Virus record (IMG/VR): IMGVR_UViG_3300030101_000694
Coordinates: 1 to 21,483 of that record
Origin: a virus
Strand: one strand, 5' to 3'
DNA: 21,483 nucleotides
Both the position numbers and the translations under genes were made by a program. Below are positions 7,099 to 20,795 of this stretch, one piece after another. How positions within the stretch are numbered: the stretch's first letter is position 1; each line of letters starts with the position of its first letter. Under the pieces are notes generated by a model that saw only the letters and a list, made by a program, of their open reading frames with translations, had not been told where the DNA came from and did no database searches.

Positions 7099-7634
7099 TG
7101 GGCGCAGGTAGTTTAGAAGGTAAAGGGGCAGGCGTAGGCTTTGAAGGTATTGGCGCAGATATAAAGCCGCTGATGAAGCAGTTCGAAGAATTGCGAAAGC
7201 AGGTTAAGGATAAGGACGTGCAGAAGCGCATCCACCGATCCGTTGGCAACATCTACAAAAAGGAGATGGTGAACAACATTAAGGACGCGCGGGAGGTTAT
7301 CCGCATTCGTAGAGGTCAGAAGGAAATTAAGGAAACCGACAACATTGAAATTGGTACGCTGCGGCGTTCAATTCGCGTGTGGCTCATCGACAAACAGGCC
7401 AGCACCTATTGGGTCGGTCCTCGTGTAGGTAAAAGAATGAAACACGAAAATGACGGCTGGTTTGCAAACATCGTTGAAGGTGGTGACCAAAAGTTTGGCG
7501 GCGGCAGAAACAAGGGCGTGTTTGAGCGCTCTATTCGCAACAAGCGGCAGGAAGCGCTGACAAAGATGCGCAAGAAGTACGAGTTTCAAATTCGCAAGGC
7601 AGCACGCAAGGCGGCAAAGAAGACAAAGAAATGA
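7098..7634 (+). CDS. HK97 gp10-like tail completion protein
   Basis: This 178-aa basic protein is probably the gp10-type tail completion/neck protein. Its position between head closure and tail terminator is where HK97_gp10 family proteins occur. Features include a helical N-terminal region (LMKQFEELRKQV), a central block with GTLRRSIRVWLIDK and TYWVGPRVG, then WFANIVEGG, and a strongly basic helical tail ending KAARKAAKKTKK. I start it at ATG 7098, which shares one base with the previous stop. A TTG at 7077 would add seven residues with no benefit. The end overlaps the following gene by 4 nt. Confidence 0.82.
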   Translation: MGAGSLEGKGAGVGFEGIGADIKPLMKQFEELRKQVKDKDVQKRIHRSVGNIYKKEMVNNIKDAREVIRIRRGQKEIKETDNIEIGTLRRSIRVWLIDKQASTYWVGPRVGKRMKHENDGWFANIVEGGDQKFGGGRNKGVFERSIRNKRQEALTKMRKKYEFQIRKAARKAAKKTKK

Positions 7635-10090
7635 ACGCAGGAAAAGCAGTATATGGAATTTTAAGCACTAACAGCAACGTCACCGCTTTAGTGGGTACTC
7701 GGATATTTCCGGAAATTGCAGAACAAGAAGCGGCAACGCCTTTTATTGTTTATCAATTGCAAAGCGTTGATCCAGATGACACGCACGACGGACCAAGCGA
7801 ATTAGACGAAGTACGATTTGAATTTTTGTGTTATGCTGATACTTATGACCAAGCGGCCGACCTAGGCGAAAAGGTGCGCGGCGCCTTAGATAGAATAAGC
7901 GGCACTTATAACGGTGTTAACGTAGAGAGCGTTCAATTTAATGATGTAGATATAGAGATAGAATATCAACCAAGGCGCTACAGTCAAGTCTTAAAATTTA
8001 CATTTCGCATCAAGCGCGATGACATTACCATAGCTTTAGGCACGCCAGTAACTGGCGCTGTACTAGGCGATTTAAGTGACGTTGATGTTACAGGAGTAAG
8101 CAACGGTCAAGTAGTTGCGTACAACGCCACTAGCGGAAATTGGGAGGCGGCAAACGCAGGCGGTGGCGCAAGTCAATTGAATGATTTAGATGACGTTACA
8201 ATAGACGGCCCGGCAAACTTTGATATTTTACTAAGTGATGGCAGCGGCAACTACGTTAATAGTTCTGTCTTTAATGATGTTTACACCAATATTAAATTAG
8301 GCACTAGTACATCCTTTAATGACGGAGCAAATACAAACAGTCAATTAGAGCTAACAGGGACAACGGCAAAACTTAAAACAGGATCAACACAGTTGTTGCT
8401 TACAGAAGCTTCGCCAGGAGATATAGAATTTATTGTAGCTACAGACGTCAATGGTAATACGGCATTTACAGCTTTACATATAGACGGCCAAACAACTGCA
8501 AGCGTAGCAGATACTATTGTAAAAGCTGGCAACAGTTTAAAATTTGAGGATTCAAGCGGCGATAAAATTTGGTTACGAGTACCCAACGTTTCTGGTGATA
8601 CAACTGTGCTGTTGCCTGCTACTGCTGGGACCCTTGCGCTTACAAGTGATATTGCACATGATTCAGCGGTGCAAGCTAATACCGCAAAGACCTCTTTTCC
8701 TGGCTTTGGAACGAGCGCAGGAACAGCCCTCGAAGGAGATACCGCGATTTTGCAACTGGGAACTACAAGCACGACCGCGCTAGCTGGAGATACCACTACA
8801 ATAAGCACGGCACAAGCTAACGCCATAACAGCAAACACAGCTAAAGTAAGCTATACAGACGCGGCCGCGGTTGCAGCAAATACAGCTAAAACAGGAATAA
8901 CCACCGAGCAAGCAAATGCGATAACGGCCAACACAGCAAAAGTTAGCTATACCGATTCAGCGGCGGTAGCTGCGAACACAGCTAAAACATCATTTCCCGG
9001 CTTTGGCACATCAGCAGGCACAGCCTTGGAGGGAGATACTACATTGTTGCAGTTAGGCACTACGAGTACAACGGCTTTAGCAGGTGACACGACCACTATA
9101 ACAACAGACCAAGCGAATGCAATAACGGCGAACACAACAAAAAATACTTACCCAAGTGCGGACGCCTCTAAGCTCGCAGGTATCGAAACGGGAGCAGATG
9201 TAACGGACGCAACCAACGTACAAGCAGCAGGCGCGTTGATGGCATCAAGCGCACAATTGACGGGAAACCTTGACGTACAAACCAACCAAATAAATACAAC
9301 TACTGCGGACGGTAATATTAAAATAAATCCGAATGGCACGGGCTGCGTTGAAATTATGGGCGATGGTACTGATGACGGTACAACGGGCGCAATACAATTA
9401 AACTGTAGCAACAACCAACACGGTGTAAAAATACAAAGCCCAGCGCACGCAGAAGGCGCAACCTATACATTAACCTTACCAGACTCAGACGGCGAAGCAA
9501 ACCAAGTATTGAAGACAGACGGCAGCGGCGGTTTATCTTGGACGAATCAAACAAGCGGCAGCGGTGGCGGTTTAACTGAAACGCCCTTAGCAACAGTTAC
9601 GGGCCGCGCTCAATTTAGCTCATCTGATGATGGAGAAAGCGTAATATTGGGCGGGGTTTATGGTGTAAATTATTTTAATATGAGCACCGAGCTAGGGAGT
9701 TATGATAGCTCTGCAATTGTCGATACTACTACACTAAACCAACACAACTACAAACACGTATATAGCGCGATATTATTACCGAGCGACAGTAAAAAAGTAC
9801 GAGCAAAAATTACTTACAGAATAGATGACCCAGTAGTAGGTCAAACATGGGGATTTAGTATGTGGAGCGCAAACAATCCAAGCGGCTCAGGTTCTTATGA
9901 CATGACACTAAGAGCACGCAGTAGCGACACAACGCCGCCCAATGATCAATCCATCTATGTATATAACAAAGAATTCACCACAACAAGCGACATAGACGAC
10001 GACGCAATCTATTTTGTTGTTGATCACAGAAGCGGCAGCATAGACGCAACGACCTATATCTATTTTTCTCTTCAACTTTTTCTAGTATAA
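7631..10090 (+). CDS. Tail terminator (DUF3168-like) fused to a long fibre-like region
   Basis: The first 130 of 819 residues resemble DUF3168/SPP1 gp17-type tail terminators: KAVYGILSTNSNVTALVGTRIFP, then TPFIVYQLQS, FEFLCYADTYDQA and VLKFTFRIKRDD. This matches its place after the gp10-like gene. The frame then continues without a stop into sequence typical of marine-phage tail fibres: LSDVDVTGVSNGQVVAYN at about residues 149-166, T/A/N-rich repeats at 350-510, DASKLAGIETGADVTDATN, and a beta-rich C-terminal region from about 650 to 819 that may bind a receptor. No A-rich leader plus ATG was noticed at the junction. If the fusion is real, the fibre part would sit at the neck like a whisker. 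Separate translation or cleavage cannot be excluded. Confidence 0.85.
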   Translation: MNAGKAVYGILSTNSNVTALVGTRIFPEIAEQEAATPFIVYQLQSVDPDDTHDGPSELDEVRFEFLCYADTYDQAADLGEKVRGALDRISGTYNGVNVESVQFNDVDIEIEYQPRRYSQVLKFTFRIKRDDITIALGTPVTGAVLGDLSDVDVTGVSNGQVVAYNATSGNWEAANAGGGASQLNDLDDVTIDGPANFDILLSDGSGNYVNSSVFNDVYTNIKLGTSTSFNDGANTNSQLELTGTTAKLKTGSTQLLLTEASPGDIEFIVATDVNGNTAFTALHIDGQTTASVADTIVKAGNSLKFEDSSGDKIWLRVPNVSGDTTVLLPATAGTLALTSDIAHDSAVQANTAKTSFPGFGTSAGTALEGDTAILQLGTTSTTALAGDTTTISTAQANAITANTAKVSYTDAAAVAANTAKTGITTEQANAITANTAKVSYTDSAAVAANTAKTSFPGFGTSAGTALEGDTTLLQLGTTSTTALAGDTTTITTDQANAITANTTKNTYPSADASKLAGIETGADVTDATNVQAAGALMASSAQLTGNLDVQTNQINTTTADGNIKINPNGTGCVEIMGDGTDDGTTGAIQLNCSNNQHGVKIQSPAHAEGATYTLTLPDSDGEANQVLKTDGSGGLSWTNQTSGSGGGLTETPLATVTGRAQFSSSDDGESVILGGVYGVNYFNMSTELGSYDSSAIVDTTTLNQHNYKHVYSAILLPSDSKKVRAKITYRIDDPVVGQTWGFSMWSANNPSGSGSYDMTLRARSSDTTPPNDQSIYVYNKEFTTTSDIDDDAIYFVVDHRSGSIDATTYIYFSLQLFLV
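8690..9136 (+). repeat. Two 50-codon peptide repeats with scrambled codons in the fibre region
   Basis: Codons at 8690-8839 and 8987-9136 encode nearly the same 50 residues (residues 354-403 and 453-502), starting TSFPGFGTSAGTALEGDT. By hand alignment, 4 residues differ, 15 codons are identical and 31 are synonymous changes. A shorter peptide unit, ANAITANTAKVSYTD, also recurs between them. The peptide is repeated, but the DNA is not closely so. Confidence 0.9.
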
Positions 10091-16532: not shown

Positions 16533-17238
16533 GCAACACAGACCGCGATTAAGTGCGCAACAAGTCAAAGCCCTGGATTTTATAAGGGCAAACGAACGGC
16601 GCATTTTAATTGTTGGTGATTTGCATTGTCCCTTTGAGCTTGACTGCTATTTAGATTTTTGCCTAGAGCAATACAATAATTACAATTGTAATGCTGTTAT
16701 TTTCATCGGTGACATTTTAGACAACCATTACGCGAGCTACCACGAAACCAACGCAAACGGTATGAGTGGTGGATCAGAATTACATGCGGCAATCAAGCAC
16801 GTTGACAAGTGGGCTAGCGCTTTTCCTGTTGCTGACGTCATAATAGGAAATCATGACCGTTTAATTATGCGTAAGGCGTTTAGTTCATCAGTCCCTCAAG
16901 AATGGATTAAAGACTATAATGAAGTCTTAGGCACTACTTGGAACTGGTGTAACCGGATTGTATATGATGGCGTGCAATATGTACACGGTGAAGGCGGCAC
17001 GGCACGCACAAAAGCAAAAAACGATATGCAAAGCACAGTGCAGGGCCATATACACACCCAAGCATATTGCGAATGGAACGTAGGCAACACCTTTAAAATT
17101 TTTGGGATGCAAGTCGGTTGTGGTATTGATCGCAACAGCTACGCCGCTGCCTACGCTAAACACTTCAAAAAACAGGCTATCGGCTGCGGTGTCGTATTGG
17201 GCGGCCATACTGCTATAAATTGTTTAATGCATTTGTAA
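16525..17238 (+). CDS. Calcineurin-like metallophosphoesterase
   Basis: All canonical metal-binding motifs are present in this 237-aa protein: GDLH at 31-34 (D32, H34), GDILDNH at 62-68 (D63), GNHD at 108-111 (N109, H110), H154 in VHGEGG, and GHIH at 174-177 (H175, H177). It should therefore hydrolyse a phosphoester with two metal ions, but the substrate (nucleic acid, nucleotide, other) cannot be told from the motifs. It lies just behind the endolysin, between late and early regions, and overlaps the endolysin gene by 8 nt. Phages often carry such enzymes near DNA-metabolism genes, so co-transcription with lysis genes may not indicate shared function. Confidence 0.92.
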   Translation: MIRQHRPRLSAQQVKALDFIRANERRILIVGDLHCPFELDCYLDFCLEQYNNYNCNAVIFIGDILDNHYASYHETNANGMSGGSELHAAIKHVDKWASAFPVADVIIGNHDRLIMRKAFSSSVPQEWIKDYNEVLGTTWNWCNRIVYDGVQYVHGEGGTARTKAKNDMQSTVQGHIHTQAYCEWNVGNTFKIFGMQVGCGIDRNSYAAAYAKHFKKQAIGCGVVLGGHTAINCLMHL

Positions 17239-17265
17239 TGTACCTTGCTCAAGAAATTTTAAGAC

Positions 17266-17439
17266 ATGCAACAAATATTACTTACATACTGGGCTGAGAT
17301 TGCTTTAGCTATTCTTACCGCTGCCGGAACAATAACGGCACTTACGGAGACTGACAAGGATGACCGAGTTATAGATATATTAAAACGAATTTTAAATGCT
17401 GTTGTTTTGGGTCGCAGTAAGCGCAGACGAAAAAAATAG
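17266..17439 (+). CDS. Small membrane protein with a basic tail (57 aa)
   Basis: The frame from ATG 17266 encodes a hydrophobic helix at about residues 9-27 (WAEIALAILTAAGTITALT), an acidic and polar middle (ETDKDDRVIDILKRIL) and a very basic end (GRSKRRRKK). A single span with a positively charged cytoplasmic tail is compatible with a lysis accessory such as a spanin-like or holin-related product, or with another membrane role. I do not recognise a family with certainty. It starts 27 nt after the phosphoesterase stop, and a TATCTTTG box begins two bases after its own stop codon. Confidence 0.7.
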   Translation: MQQILLTYWAEIALAILTAAGTITALTETDKDDRVIDILKRILNAVVLGRSKRRRKK

Positions 17440-17440
17440 T

Positions 17441-17448
17441 TATCTTTG
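17441..17448 (+). promoter_or_regulatory. Candidate Bacteroidota promoter -7 box (TATCTTTG)
   Basis: TATCTTTG matches the Bacteroidota -7 consensus TAnnTTTG exactly and is followed by TAACAG. No TTG stands 17-23 bp upstream, so the -33 element is not convincing. Expected transcription would begin a few bases downstream and run into the hairpin at 17482-17513. Confidence 0.5.
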
Positions 17449-17462
17449 TAACAGAGTTTCGT

Positions 17463-17478
17463 GATTAGGTTTGATTAG
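17463..17478 (+). repeat. GATTAG direct repeat with 10-bp spacing
   Basis: GATTAG occurs at 17463-17468 and 17473-17478, one helical turn apart, directly downstream of the -7-like box. This could be a repressor site for a regulator such as the HTH protein encoded at 19345-19578. It is short enough to arise by chance. Confidence 0.35.
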
Positions 17479-17481
17479 CGG

Positions 17482-17513
17482 GCGGCATCCTTGGGAGGGG
17501 GTGCCGCTTTTTT
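17482..17513 (+). terminator. Intrinsic terminator at the late/early boundary
   Basis: GCGGCATCC at 17482-17490 pairs with GGGTGCCGC at 17499-17507 (one G-T pair) around an 8-nt loop TTGGGAGG, and six T residues follow at 17508-17513. It is well placed to end the late transcript of tail and lysis genes before the replication module. Confidence 0.9.
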
Positions 17514-17523
17514 GTGCAATAAT

Positions 17524-17554
17524 TTGCAATGCTGTCATAAACATTGTATTATTG
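17524..17554 (+). promoter_or_regulatory. Possible promoter for the replication genes
   Basis: TTG at 17524-17526 and TATTATTG at 17547-17554 are separated by 20 bp, close to the Bacteroidota arrangement TTG / TAnnTTTG; the -7 box has one mismatch. The box ends only 4 nt before the ATG at 17559, so a transcript from here would be nearly leaderless. GCAA-TAAT-TTGC (17516-17527) forms a small inverted repeat over the -33 element. Confidence 0.4.
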
Positions 17555-17558
17555 ACCC

Positions 17559-17684
17559 ATGAACAACGTACTAATACTATCAATGTGGCGCGAGGGTTAC
17601 GATTACCCAAGCGATGAAGAAGAGCAACTTGAAGATTTCATGGAACGCGCCGACCACGATTACGAACAGCTAAACGATAAGTAA
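17559..17684 (+). CDS. Small acidic protein (41 aa)
   Basis: The first frame after the late terminator encodes a 41-aa peptide starting MNNVLILSMWREGYDYP and continuing as a strongly acidic helix (SDEEEQLEDFMERADHD). No known domain is recognised. Its place as the first gene of the replication module and its acidity would suit a small regulatory or inhibitory phage protein, which is only a guess. It is separated from the next start by one base. A stop codon two nucleotides before the next ATG suggests coupled translation. Confidence 0.6.
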   Translation: MNNVLILSMWREGYDYPSDEEEQLEDFMERADHDYEQLNDK

Positions 17685-17685
17685 A

Positions 17686-17841
17686 ATGAACAAACCTATT
17701 TGCGTACAAAGCAGCGTACATGTAAAGTCCACAAAAGACTTTAACGCATGGCAACAAGAATTAGCAGAAGAGCGTCGATTTCAACGGCTAATGCAACAAT
17801 TTAAAGATGAGTTAGTAAAAGCATATATCAAAAACCGATGA
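17686..17841 (+). CDS. Small hypothetical protein (51 aa)
   Basis: This 51-aa frame begins MNKPICVQSSVHVKSTKDFN and continues as a charged helix (WQQELAEERRFQRLMQQFKD). No domain is recognised. The gene fits tightly between neighbours: it starts one base after the previous stop and its own stop overlaps the next start by 4 nt (ATGA). This packing is the main reason to regard it as real. Confidence 0.62.
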   Translation: MNKPICVQSSVHVKSTKDFNAWQQELAEERRFQRLMQQFKDELVKAYIKNR

Positions 17842-18362
17842 ACGTAAACGATATTTATGTTAGCGCCTGCCGTGGCGCTTTCGATAAGAATGTGCAAGAT
17901 GTGCGATTGATTGACTGGCTTGAAAACGTCCGACCTGAACAGCCGCGAAACGACTGGGAGAAAAAGCAGTTACCTGCTATTATGCCTCACGGCCTTTTCA
18001 TGAACCGCAAACAGAACACCTTTCAAGCTGCAAGCGGTTTAATACAGATTGACATTGACGCAAAGCACCAAGATAAAGAGCTTAACATGAATGAGATTCT
18101 GCACCATGTAGCTTACAGTAATTGCATTGTAGCCGCTGGGAAGAGCTGCAGTGGTACAGGTTTGTATATGCTGATAGCTGTAAATGGCATAACTGTAGAC
18201 AATTTTACAGACTGTGCAGACAAGGCCATTTTATACGTTGAAAAAGCGTACGACATTAAGTGTGATTCACCAGTGAGCATGAATTTAAGCAGCTTGCGGT
18301 TTGCCTCACCATACGCGCCTTACATCAATTATGACGTAGAACCTTTAACACTAGAAGTATGA
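17838..18362 (+). CDS. Stand-alone VirE_N / BT4734-like primase-fold protein
   Basis: The 174-aa product resembles the N-terminal domain of Bacteroidota VirE/BT4734-like proteins, which has an archaeo-eukaryotic primase-like fold. Visible landmarks are the acidic strand GLIQIDIDAKHQ (about residues 67-78, with the D-x-D pair), GKSCSGTGLYMLIAV (about 101-115), and MNLSSLRFASPYAPYINYD near the end. In cellular relatives this domain is usually joined to a VirE C-terminal or helicase domain, absent here. A role in priming or processing phage DNA is likely from family and context, but activity of the isolated domain is unproven. It overlaps both neighbours by 4 nt. Confidence 0.8.
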   Translation: MNVNDIYVSACRGAFDKNVQDVRLIDWLENVRPEQPRNDWEKKQLPAIMPHGLFMNRKQNTFQAASGLIQIDIDAKHQDKELNMNEILHHVAYSNCIVAAGKSCSGTGLYMLIAVNGITVDNFTDCADKAILYVEKAYDIKCDSPVSMNLSSLRFASPYAPYINYDVEPLTLEV

Positions 18363-18735: not shown

Positions 18736-19011
18736 ATGAATCTGGACGAATTTTTTGAAGACGTTAAAGCCGATCAGCACGCGCACCAGGAGCGCCTCAA
18801 AGATTACGCGCTTTTCTTGCTACTAAATAGCACAATGCGCGATGAAGATGAAGGCCTAGAAGACGAAATAATTGACACAGAACCCACGCTTTTGCGCTGG
18901 CGTGAAATATTTGAGCGCTTAAAACGTAACCAATTACGGACCATTGACCTGCCTAGTTGGTCGCAAACATCATTTAATAAATCTTATAAATACCATGGAC
19001 TGGATAATTGA
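18736..19011 (+). CDS. Hypothetical protein in the replication module (91 aa)
   Basis: The 91-aa product, starting MNLDEFFEDVKADQHAHQER, is hydrophilic and mostly helical, with an acidic central region (RDEDEGLEDEIIDTEP) and a C-terminal basic helix (WREIFERLKRNQLRTIDLP). No domain is recognised. It lies in a run of replication genes and ends 17 nt inside the following gene, which suggests coupling. Its role is unknown. Confidence 0.7.
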   Translation: MNLDEFFEDVKADQHAHQERLKDYALFLLLNSTMRDEDEGLEDEIIDTEPTLLRWREIFERLKRNQLRTIDLPSWSQTSFNKSYKYHGLDN

Positions 19012-19357
19012 AGGAGAGGTACACAGAATTTGCAAACCCTTTGAGCACGAAAGCGGATTCCGTCGCTGTGCTGTACATGTTAAAATTACAGACGGAAAAT
19101 ATAGCCAAATAATACCGTTAGAATTTCTACAAGACATGACAGATGAAGCTATGACCTTAACAATTGGGTCACATATTAAAGCTCATTGTAACCTGCGAGG
19201 CCGCGAGTATATCAATAAACAAGGTGATCATGCCGCATTTATGAATTTGCAGGTTTGGAACTATGATATAGAAGAAAAAACCATTAAACAAAAGGTTATG
19301 GAGAAAGCGCAACAAGCGGCAGAAACAGAAGTAAATGACATGCCATGGGACAAGTAA
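18995..19357 (+). CDS. DUF3127-like single-stranded-DNA-binding protein
   Basis: Started at ATG 18995, this 120-aa protein looks like the DUF3127 family of OB-fold proteins thought to bind single-stranded DNA: WIIEGEVHRICKPFEHESGF, a central strand pattern with FRRCAVHVKITDGKYSQIIP, and GSHIKAHCNLRGREY before a final strand ending LQVWNYDI. The C-terminal tail is polar and ends VNDMPWDK, faintly like the acidic tip of bacterial SSB (DDDIPF). A longer frame from a TTG at 18944 would overlap the preceding gene by 68 nt, so I reject it. The gene overlaps the HTH gene by 13 nt. Confidence 0.78.
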   Translation: MDWIIEGEVHRICKPFEHESGFRRCAVHVKITDGKYSQIIPLEFLQDMTDEAMTLTIGSHIKAHCNLRGREYINKQGDHAAFMNLQVWNYDIEEKTIKQKVMEKAQQAAETEVNDMPWDK

Positions 19358-19578
19358 ACCTAAAAGAGTATTTACAGCAGCATTACGGCAGTATTGAAGC
19401 GTGCGCAGACGCTATAGAGGTAAGCAGACGGACGGTATATAATTACATAGCTAAAAACCCGGAAGGCGTGTTACGTCACGCAAGCCGATTGATTGAAAAA
19501 GAAGGCGTGGACGTAATGCAATTGATTGCCGCAGTCGTAACATCACAAGTGCAAATAGGTGAAGCGCAACTATCTTAA
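19345..19578 (+). CDS. Small helix-turn-helix DNA-binding protein
   Basis: The 77-aa product contains a helix-turn-helix at about residues 16-36, SIEACADAIEVSRRTVYNYI, with the typical pattern of a short first helix, a turn around E25-V26-S27 and a recognition helix. It could be a repressor or activator of early transcription. The only plausible target sites noticed in the window are the GATTAG pair at 17463-17478 and the dyad at 17516-17527, a link that is purely speculative. It overlaps the gene before by 13 nt and the initiator gene after it by 20 nt. Confidence 0.8.
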   Translation: MGQVNLKEYLQQHYGSIEACADAIEVSRRTVYNYIAKNPEGVLRHASRLIEKEGVDVMQLIAAVVTSQVQIGEAQLS

Positions 19579-20290
19579 AATACCAATTGAGATATGGAAT
19601 ATGGCAGATCTTGCACCTAATGAGCGCATTTTACTAGCAGAGGTTGCAAGCTTCGATCAATGCTGGGCCGGAAATGACCATTTTGCGCAATTGTTGCACG
19701 TATCAGAAGACACCGCCAGAGGATACATTTATAACCTCATCGAAAAAGGTTATTTAATTAGAGAGGGCACAAGATACCGCAGGCGATTGCGTAAATCTAC
19801 GCAAACGAACGAGCAAATTAGCGCAAACGAATGCGCAAATCCACGCAAACGAATGCGTAAATCTACGCAGACGAGTGCGCAGAATTGCCCACAGACTAAT
19901 AAAAAGACTAATACAACTACTAATACAATTACTAAAGGCGCACAAGTGCGCGGTGTTGTTCTACCTTTTGAAACTAAAGAGTTTGCTAAAGCCTGGACCG
20001 AATGGCTAGAATATAAACACACTGATCACCGATTTAGATATAAATCAGCCCAAACAGAACAAAGGGCATTAATAACACTTGCTAATGAACACAGTACAGA
20101 AAGTGCAGCAATCCAAGCAATTTATACAGCAATTGCAAACGGCTGGAAAGGCCTCATATTTAGTGCATCCAAGGGCCGGAGACCTCGCGCCAGCGGAAAG
20201 GCAGCAATTGAAGGCCGCCAGCTTAGCAATCAGCTTAGAGAACTTGCAGAAACAGGAAATATCGCAGGTGACAATAGAAACCGCCTTTAA
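19559..20290 (+). CDS. Winged-helix replication initiator-like protein
   Basis: This 243-aa protein starts at GTG 19559 with MKRNYLKIPIEIWNMADLAP and has an N-terminal winged-helix region (to about residue 72, with NDHFAQLLHVSEDTARGYIY and NLIEKGYLIREG) typical of phage replication initiators of Bacteroidota. Residues 77-125 form a low-complexity linker, rich in R/K/S/T/Q/N, that is encoded by tandem DNA repeats resembling an origin. The C-terminal part (FAKAWTEWLEYKHTDHRF, AIYTAIANGWKGLIF) is a common ending in such proteins. A phage initiator carrying its own origin inside the gene is known, for example lambda O. The last 206 nt overlap a second coding frame. Confidence 0.83.
   Translation: MKRNYLKIPIEIWNMADLAPNERILLAEVASFDQCWAGNDHFAQLLHVSEDTARGYIYNLIEKGYLIREGTRYRRRLRKSTQTNEQISANECANPRKRMRKSTQTSAQNCPQTNKKTNTTTNTITKGAQVRGVVLPFETKEFAKAWTEWLEYKHTDHRFRYKSAQTEQRALITLANEHSTESAAIQAIYTAIANGWKGLIFSASKGRRPRASGKAAIEGRQLSNQLRELAETGNIAGDNRNRL
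19789..19876 (+). repeat. Four tandem 22-bp repeats (candidate origin iterons)
   Basis: Units at 19789-19810, 19811-19832, 19833-19854 and 19855-19876 are each 22 bp with no spacer, and 14 of 22 positions are invariant. The core is ACGCAAACGAAT or close to it. Units 1 and 4 begin with an inverted repeat GCGTA-AATC-TACGC. Because the unit is not a multiple of three, copies are read in different frames; the peptide repeats only every 66 bp (RKSTQT). Confidence 0.88.
19895..19934 (+). repeat. 12-bp AT-rich tandem repeats (candidate DNA unwinding element)
   Basis: ACTAATAAAAAG at 19895, ACTAATACAACT at 19907 and ACTAATACAATT at 19919 form three 12-bp units, followed by a partial unit ACTA at 19931. 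They lie 18 bp after the 22-bp repeats and consist almost entirely of A and T plus the repeated AC. Together the layout is iterons then AT-rich repeats. Confidence 0.75.
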
Positions 20291-20795
20291 AGGAACGAAC
20301 GTACGAACAGCGTATAAATTAGACGAACAGGCCACAAGGGCCGCCCTTATCGGCATGTTAGCGAAATGTGTGCGTTTTGTAGATGCAAATAAGACTTTGA
20401 CAGAAGGCGATGAGTATAAAATGGTGCTAGAAGAGCTTATAAAAAGCTTTCCAACGCTTACTATTGAGGACTGGCGCCTTTGCCTTTACATGATGGCTAA
20501 AGAAACCTTCGGCGGCTATTATGAGCGCCTAAAGCTGGCGCAGTTCGTTGAGTGCTTTACCAAGTATGAGCAGCTCAAGCAACCAATAATAACGAAGATT
20601 CGCCAGGACGAGGCGGCAGATTTTGAGCGCATGCAAACAGAGGCCTTAAGGCATATAACGCCAGAGTATGCAACAGAATTTAACCCGATCGCGGCGCGCG
20701 TAACGCCGCAGGACTGGTTGAGAGGCGAAAACCGCCTGACGTACACCGAGCGCGAGGAAATGGACAAACGAGCAAAAGCACGCACCAATGATTGA
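20085..20795 (+). CDS. DUF6633-like / helicase-loader-like protein
   Basis: This 236-aa frame overlaps the initiator by 206 nt when started at ATG 20085; later GTG codons at 20163 and 20268 are alternatives, the last giving only 23 nt overlap. The C-terminal core has TLTIEDWRLCLYMMAKETFG and GYYERLKLAQFVECFTKYEQ, a pattern resembling DUF6633-type phage replication accessory proteins, where a residue run before a G-x-x-Y-x-R-L is common. In lambda-type modules the gene after the initiator loads the helicase, which fits here. The assignment is moderate. The last bases overlap the methyltransferase by 8 nt. Confidence 0.7.
   Translation: MNTVQKVQQSKQFIQQLQTAGKASYLVHPRAGDLAPAERQQLKAASLAISLENLQKQEISQVTIETAFKGTNVRTAYKLDEQATRAALIGMLAKCVRFVDANKTLTEGDEYKMVLEELIKSFPTLTIEDWRLCLYMMAKETFGGYYERLKLAQFVECFTKYEQLKQPIITKIRQDEAADFERMQTEALRHITPEYATEFNPIAARVTPQDWLRGENRLTYTEREEMDKRAKARTND

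Follow-up and report, generated by a model that had tools for sequence, protein, structure and literature searches.

We sought to explain why a predicted phage initiator gene carries in its middle an array of short direct repeats followed by AT-rich repeats. The window, by which we mean the whole stretch of DNA analysed, is a 21,483-bp virus record that is classed as linear and carries no completeness estimate. The gene occupies positions 19559 to 20290 on the plus strand and encodes 243 amino acids, arranged as an N-terminal winged helix, a disordered linker and a C-terminal helical domain. Our reading of the sequence evidence is that the region is very probably the replication origin of the phage, embedded in the stretch of its own initiator gene that codes for the linker, and resembling ori-lambda in its working.

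The iteron array spans 19784 to 19891 on the plus strand, with 22-bp units starting at 19788, 19810, 19832 and 19854, a degenerate fifth unit starting at 19876, and the dyad core TGCGYAAATCYACGCA. TRF assigned it a period of 22 with 4.5 copies at 19784-19881 (score 124). An earlier sequence-only reading had described four adjoining 22-bp units that share 14 invariant positions, and exactly this count is obtained in any phase from 19784 to 19794, including 19789. In dyad register the units read TGCGTAAATCTACGCA (19788), a diverged unit (19810), TGCGCAAATCCACGCA (19832), TGCGTAAATCTACGCA (19854) and TGCGCAGAATTGCCCA (19876), with AACGAR-like spacers between them. The last of these ends at 19891 and lies inside the gap of about 18 bp between the 22-bp and 12-bp arrays. 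The dyad TGCGYA-AATC-YACGCA is present in three of the four full units, the second being a diverged form, and no exact dyad was found elsewhere in the window. Nor did the window contain a DnaA box (TTATNCACA). Matches at a lag of 22 were observed at 53 of 66 positions, compared with 38.5 +/- 3.4 after synonymous codons were shuffled within the gene (maximum 48 in 300 shuffles). This excess over the shuffles indicates that the array is neither a product of chance nor a by-product of the peptide. A 90-aa minus-strand ORF at 19750-20022 stays open through the array, and is probably an artefact of repeat composition.

About 18 bp past the array, as the earlier reading had it, TRF recovered AT-rich 12-bp repeats ACTAATACANNT at 19895-19935 on the plus strand (period 12, 3.4 copies), which form the predicted unwinding element. 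Of all 40-bp stretches in the gene this one is the least stable, at the 99.96th percentile of the window and with the minimum at gene nucleotide 338; 70 of 73 genes have their stability minimum at the AT repeats. Directly behind them is a perfect inverted repeat, GCGCA-CAAG-TGCGC (19938-19951). Its arms vary yet remain complementary in many type A genes, two type B genes and one type C gene (the iteron types are defined below), with pairs such as GCGCA/TGCGC, GCACGC/GCGTGC, GGGCG/CGCCC, GCGCG/CGCGC and GGCGC/GCGCC, and it is absent in other genes. We therefore rejected the idea of a hairpin kept in all relatives, since it occurs in much of type A and in part of B and C and is missing elsewhere, and only some shuffle tests were significant. 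The inverted repeat is an optional feature of these genes.

The product of the gene had been described as a winged-helix initiator-like protein, and profile searches agreed. It matched Pfam HTH_36 with an E-value of 1.5e-6, which exceeds the curated cut-off, and PHROGs families for replication initiation and O-like proteins with E-values of 6e-13 and 5e-12. RepA_N (PF06970) gave no match in the protein up to an E-value of 1, HTH_36 being present instead. The AlphaFold2 model contains a winged helix-turn-helix at residues 10-79, a stretch with pLDDT below 50 at residues 83-131 and helices at residues 140-194. The winged-helix-encoding part (residues 1-79, recognition helix about 50-62; HTH_36 and AlphaFold2) corresponds to 19559-19795 on the plus strand; the conserved C-terminal domain (about residues 133-205; phrog_678, O-like) is encoded by 19955-20173 on the same strand. 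All 37 family members scanned matched phrog_678, with a best E-value of 3e-16, and the C-terminal domain is presumed to contact the helicase loader or the helicase. A Foldseek search with the initiator returned generic winged helices only, none with an E-value below 0.01. In the gene, the DNA element falls where the disordered linker is encoded, the AT repeats encoding part of that linker; coding costs least there.

Relatives were collected with one scan using the protein and one using its alignment, which together gave loci on approximately 80 viral contigs, and duplicates were removed. The array was found in all 72 distinct homologous genes from viral contigs, at about nucleotides 205-378 of intact genes, right after the winged-helix (HTH_36) part and right before the AT-rich stretch. 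A TRF period of 22 scored best in 69 of the 72; the other three, which are among the most distant genes, gave 18 and mix 22 and 18 bp. Five iteron types could be distinguished: A (TGCGYAAATCYRCGCA), B (GCTCAAAAATGAGC), C (AGGGTGGTAYAAACGTAMCAC), D (GGGTGGGYRCAAACGGAC) and E (GTAGCGTGGACGCGAC). Types A and B show clear dyad symmetry, C and E a weak form of it, and D none; in a shuffle test, equally good dyads arose in 13 of 300 shuffles for type A and in 0 of 300 for type B. Aligning homologues had been suggested as a check on whether the 22-bp period outlasts changes in the linker, and it does, persisting while both the iteron sequence and the linker residues vary. The presence of the array throughout these relatives, together with the AT tract and the constrained synonymous sites described below, strongly supports the origin that the sequence-only reading had proposed.

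Several relatives depart from the common arrangement. L018 shares the C-terminal domain only, the winged helix and the array being absent from the same ORF. The type E initiators (L092, L093 and L095-L097) carry their own iterons and an unrelated-looking winged helix (NYLQIPHHVFG...) joined to the same C-terminal domain as the family of the window, and that of L093 groups with type A genes. In L353 (record G007, a 40-kb relative), a second winged-helix initiator-like gene at 16551-17243 has its own 21-bp array in the linker, with the dyad GCAAC-N4-GTTGC, and a type A initiator is present as well at 37825-38559. This record may hold two candidate origins or be a chimeric contig.

The repeats might instead be a coding feature, that is, a flexible and repetitive peptide linker produced by slippage and devoid of any role as DNA. 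This explanation draws on the predicted disorder of the linker, on the growth of low-complexity linkers by slippage, on the in-frame 12-bp repeats of the window and on a search with the pure ACTAATACA pattern, which matches mostly structural proteins with TNT repeats. The 22-bp units behave differently: since 22 is not a multiple of three, they are read in three frames, as had been pointed out from the sequence. Among type A genes of two sub-families, synonymous codons differed at frequencies of 0.268 and 0.348 in the winged helix-turn-helix, and the C-terminal domain gave 0.145 and 0.273. The array, at 0.055 and 0.080, and the AT repeats, at 0.006 and 0.016, lie lower; constraint on their synonymous sites is 3 to 40 times that in the winged-helix and C-terminal parts. 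Both arms of the dyad differ jointly between types A and B, which also speaks against this explanation. Synonymous shuffling failed to reproduce the 22-bp period in the type A-D genes tested. Type E did not pass this test, its array being short and mixing 22- and 18-bp steps, and because shuffles reproduce its period it is weaker evidence for conservation of the DNA.

The argument that DNA and not peptide alone is conserved is thus borne out by synonymous sites that are nearly frozen in the array and the AT repeats. As far as it was drawn from the repeats themselves, it stands for the 22-bp units and fails for the 12-bp repeats of the window, which are in frame. For the AT repeats the case is made instead by the synonymous rates and by relatives of types C and D, in which ACTAA motifs are spaced 11 or 13 bp apart in 17 of 32 spacings and so cross reading frames with the motif kept. 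The array and AT repeats are under selection beyond coding, and the coding explanation is already largely refuted; we give it very little weight.

The iteron types also bear on how the protein and its presumed site evolve together. Mapped on a tree of the winged helix, iteron type requires four changes, the minimum for five types, as against seven on a tree of the C-terminal domain, where at least four gains or losses of type A are forced by the starred branches, although both trees rest on few columns. One pair of genes shows the exchange most clearly. L036 (type B) and L021 (type A) share 74-94% DNA identity over the 600 bp before the gene and 80-92% over its first 100 nt; identity falls to 50-76% at gene nucleotides 100-450 and returns to 84-100% beyond. 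The exchanged stretch of about 350 bp comprises the recognition half of the winged helix, the iterons and the AT-rich linker. With reader and address lying within about 350 bp, the two can recombine as one cassette, and the comparison shows what is presumed to be a working unit of reader and site travelling whole between phages. We propose that such an exchange alters origin specificity and leaves the helicase-loading half untouched. The co-change is not proof of binding, because physical linkage alone keeps neighbours together.

Co-change of protein and site would be equally expected if the array were an operator for autoregulation, through which the initiator controls its own expression while replication begins elsewhere, and winged-helix proteins do often repress their own genes. 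The location speaks against this. The array is situated about 230 nt into the gene rather than at a promoter; it is overlapped by no promoter-like match, and the region as a whole contains about as many of these as shuffled sequence does. An operator would also leave unexplained the frozen AT repeats, the stability minimum and the order of iterons followed by AT tract that is common to lambda and SPP1. We consider an operator improbable, and retain the origin as the preferred reading.

The neighbouring genes were inspected for partners in replication. Upstream of the initiator gene and on the same strand, 18944-19357 encodes an SSB-like protein (DUF3127; PF11325 with an E-value of 1.8e-9, phrog_4932 SSB with 2.4e-15). 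Further upstream, at 17838-18362, a 174-aa protein resembles only the N-terminal part of BT4734-like primase-helicases (E-value 1.9e-7), the helicase part being absent, and the window showed no replicative helicase. The DUF3127 and BT4734-like proteins hint at a Bacteroidota host. The next gene, at 20268-20795 on the plus strand, overlaps the initiator gene and encodes an all-helical protein of 175 aa (AlphaFold2 pLDDT 72) that is a candidate helicase loader. An ORF lies directly 3' of the initiator gene in 60 of the genes examined, and the 29 that were aligned give a conserved all-helical protein. Sequence and fold searches with the 175-aa protein returned no significant match to a known loader: a gp39-like model reached an E-value of only 2.0, the best PDB match in the fold search was no better than 2.8, and the best viral matches were unnamed or uncharacterised.

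The surroundings bear as well on whether the array might serve a plasmid-like phage as a site for partition or incompatibility. Iterons resemble centromere-like repeats, and the centromere-binding winged-helix proteins AspA and that of pNOB8 were among the weak Foldseek matches. Among eight proteins checked around the array, none was a relative of ParA or ParB, and the AT-rich neighbour and the O-like initiator seen in each of the 37 relatives scanned fit an origin instead; a partition site strikes us as highly unlikely. GC skew does not change sign at the array in the window or in two relatives, all of these genomes being incomplete, and with no complete genome among those examined the skew is uninformative on the origin and may here reflect one-way coding only.

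Elsewhere in the window, about 600 bp at 17239-17837, ahead of the replication genes, hold no listed gene. A terminator-like hairpin with a T tail occurs there at 17480-17509 with promoter-like matches right behind it, and the interval is a possible start of the early operon. A 96-bp tandem repeat of 1.8 copies (8813-8989) lies within a gene for 819 aa (7631-10090), whose product is probably a repetitive structural protein. Megablast of the whole window found no match among named phages, and a profile search of genome contigs with the family alignment found no relative.

For the origin that we favour, the following course of events can be proposed. Dimers of the winged-helix domain would bind the dyads side by side and on one face of the helix, 22 bp being about two helix turns. 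The complex of initiator and array would then melt the adjoining AT repeats, the initiator or its partners would hold the exposed strand, and the C-terminal domain together with the product of the next gene would load the replicative helicase.

A strand-fixed AATAATACA element recurs behind differing iterons in the HTH_36 initiators of many phages. Thirteen of 15 named phages with HTH_36-like initiators, identified by protein similarity, have a 21-24-bp tandem array at approximately the same place in the gene, and 13 of the 15 have TAATAC after the place of the array on the coding strand. A DNA scan for AATAATACANNNATTAATAATACA found at least 31 non-redundant places among the matches listed; HTH_36 was present in 26 of the 30 containing ORFs that were scanned, and at 20 of the 31 places a detectable 21-24-bp array ends just before the motif. 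Other C-terminal domains among the listed proteins were Phg_2220_C in at least six and DnaB_2 in at least one. All initiator matches of AATAATACANNNATTAATAATACA are in one frame, and its conservation may therefore be partly at the peptide level or by descent. That DNA matters too in AATAATACA-type linkers is indicated by a codon test in three GC-rich Pseudomonas phages, where ACA accounts for 7 of the 10 threonine codons in the linker and for none of the 36 elsewhere in the gene. The short ACTAATACA pattern was rejected because it is not specific. A literature search of partial coverage on the AATAATACA element found nothing relevant.

Unannotated iteron arrays of 21-24 bp with AATAATACA-type AT repeats behind them were seen inside the initiator genes of named Lysinibacillus, Cellulophaga, Fusobacterium, Lactobacillus and Butyrivibrio phages (L101:1768-1915, L102:1707-1805, L224:981-1110, L227:979-1113, L231:961-1095 and L232:955-1058), and these are candidate origins. 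We put forward, as a proposal with even prospects of being right or wrong, that the HTH_36 initiators of phages of unrelated hosts share a strand-specific unwinding element, approximately AATAATACA every 12-15 bp on the coding strand, directly after phage-specific iterons. The NNT/TNT peptide of the linker would be the footprint of this element, and the motif would locate origins and pair each with its reader. If this is true, origin finding in many tailed phages becomes a simple DNA search. For the family of the window, the analysis supplies an exact predicted origin for a group of uncultured phages. The genes of this family are otherwise similar but pair five winged-helix types with iterons of their own, and this natural protein-site series is a ready means of learning how winged-helix initiators select the sites they bind.

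Origins embedded in initiator genes are already known from lambda O, SPP1 gene 38 and pSK41/pPR9. The lambda origin in gene O contains iterons and an AT tract, and O dimers bind 19-bp inverted repeats (PMC5043065, PMC7466680). Lambda and the window each have four iterons midway along the initiator gene, followed by an AT-rich tract and then an inverted repeat, the latter (TTCTGGC...GCCAGAA in lambda) at the same relative place. The layout proposed for the window, with the DNA-binding part before and the loader-contact part after, is also that of lambda, where the loader gene P lies directly downstream. As a control, the stability score in lambda peaked directly after iteron 4, the annotated iterons in O being spaced 20-24 bp. 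The spacing in lambda is irregular (20, 24 and 23), in contrast to the strictly regular 22-bp direct repeats of the window, and TRF misses the degenerate iterons of lambda, so that the lack of a TRF array does not mean a lack of iterons. The window differs further in iteron sequence, in its downstream protein and in an AT element built of 12-bp repeats.

SPP1 oriL in gene 38 likewise combines direct repeats with an AT-rich unwinding element inside the initiator gene, with gp39 as the loader, and the loader and helicase genes belong to the same replication system (gp38/gp39/gp40) (PMC6316719). SPP1 has a second origin 13 kb away, whereas none was found in the window. The pSK41 origin occupies the centre of rep, and the linker that it encodes is dispensable (PMC5703833). 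In pPR9 about 500 bp covering the N-terminal domain and the origin are replaced by a phage-type HTH_36 (pfam13730) domain and origin, the C-terminal domain remaining more than 97% identical; its mini-replicon is able to replicate and is compatible with pSK41 (PMC5703833). This chimera is the same kind of cassette exchange as in the family of the window, where origin specificity appears to move between phages as a small cassette. pSK41 is a RepA_N plasmid of a Gram-positive host, whereas in the family of the window all partners are phage genes; types A-D can be aligned with one another, and the type E winged helix is very different. By its anatomy and its O-like protein family, the window system appears to belong to the lambda-type origins.
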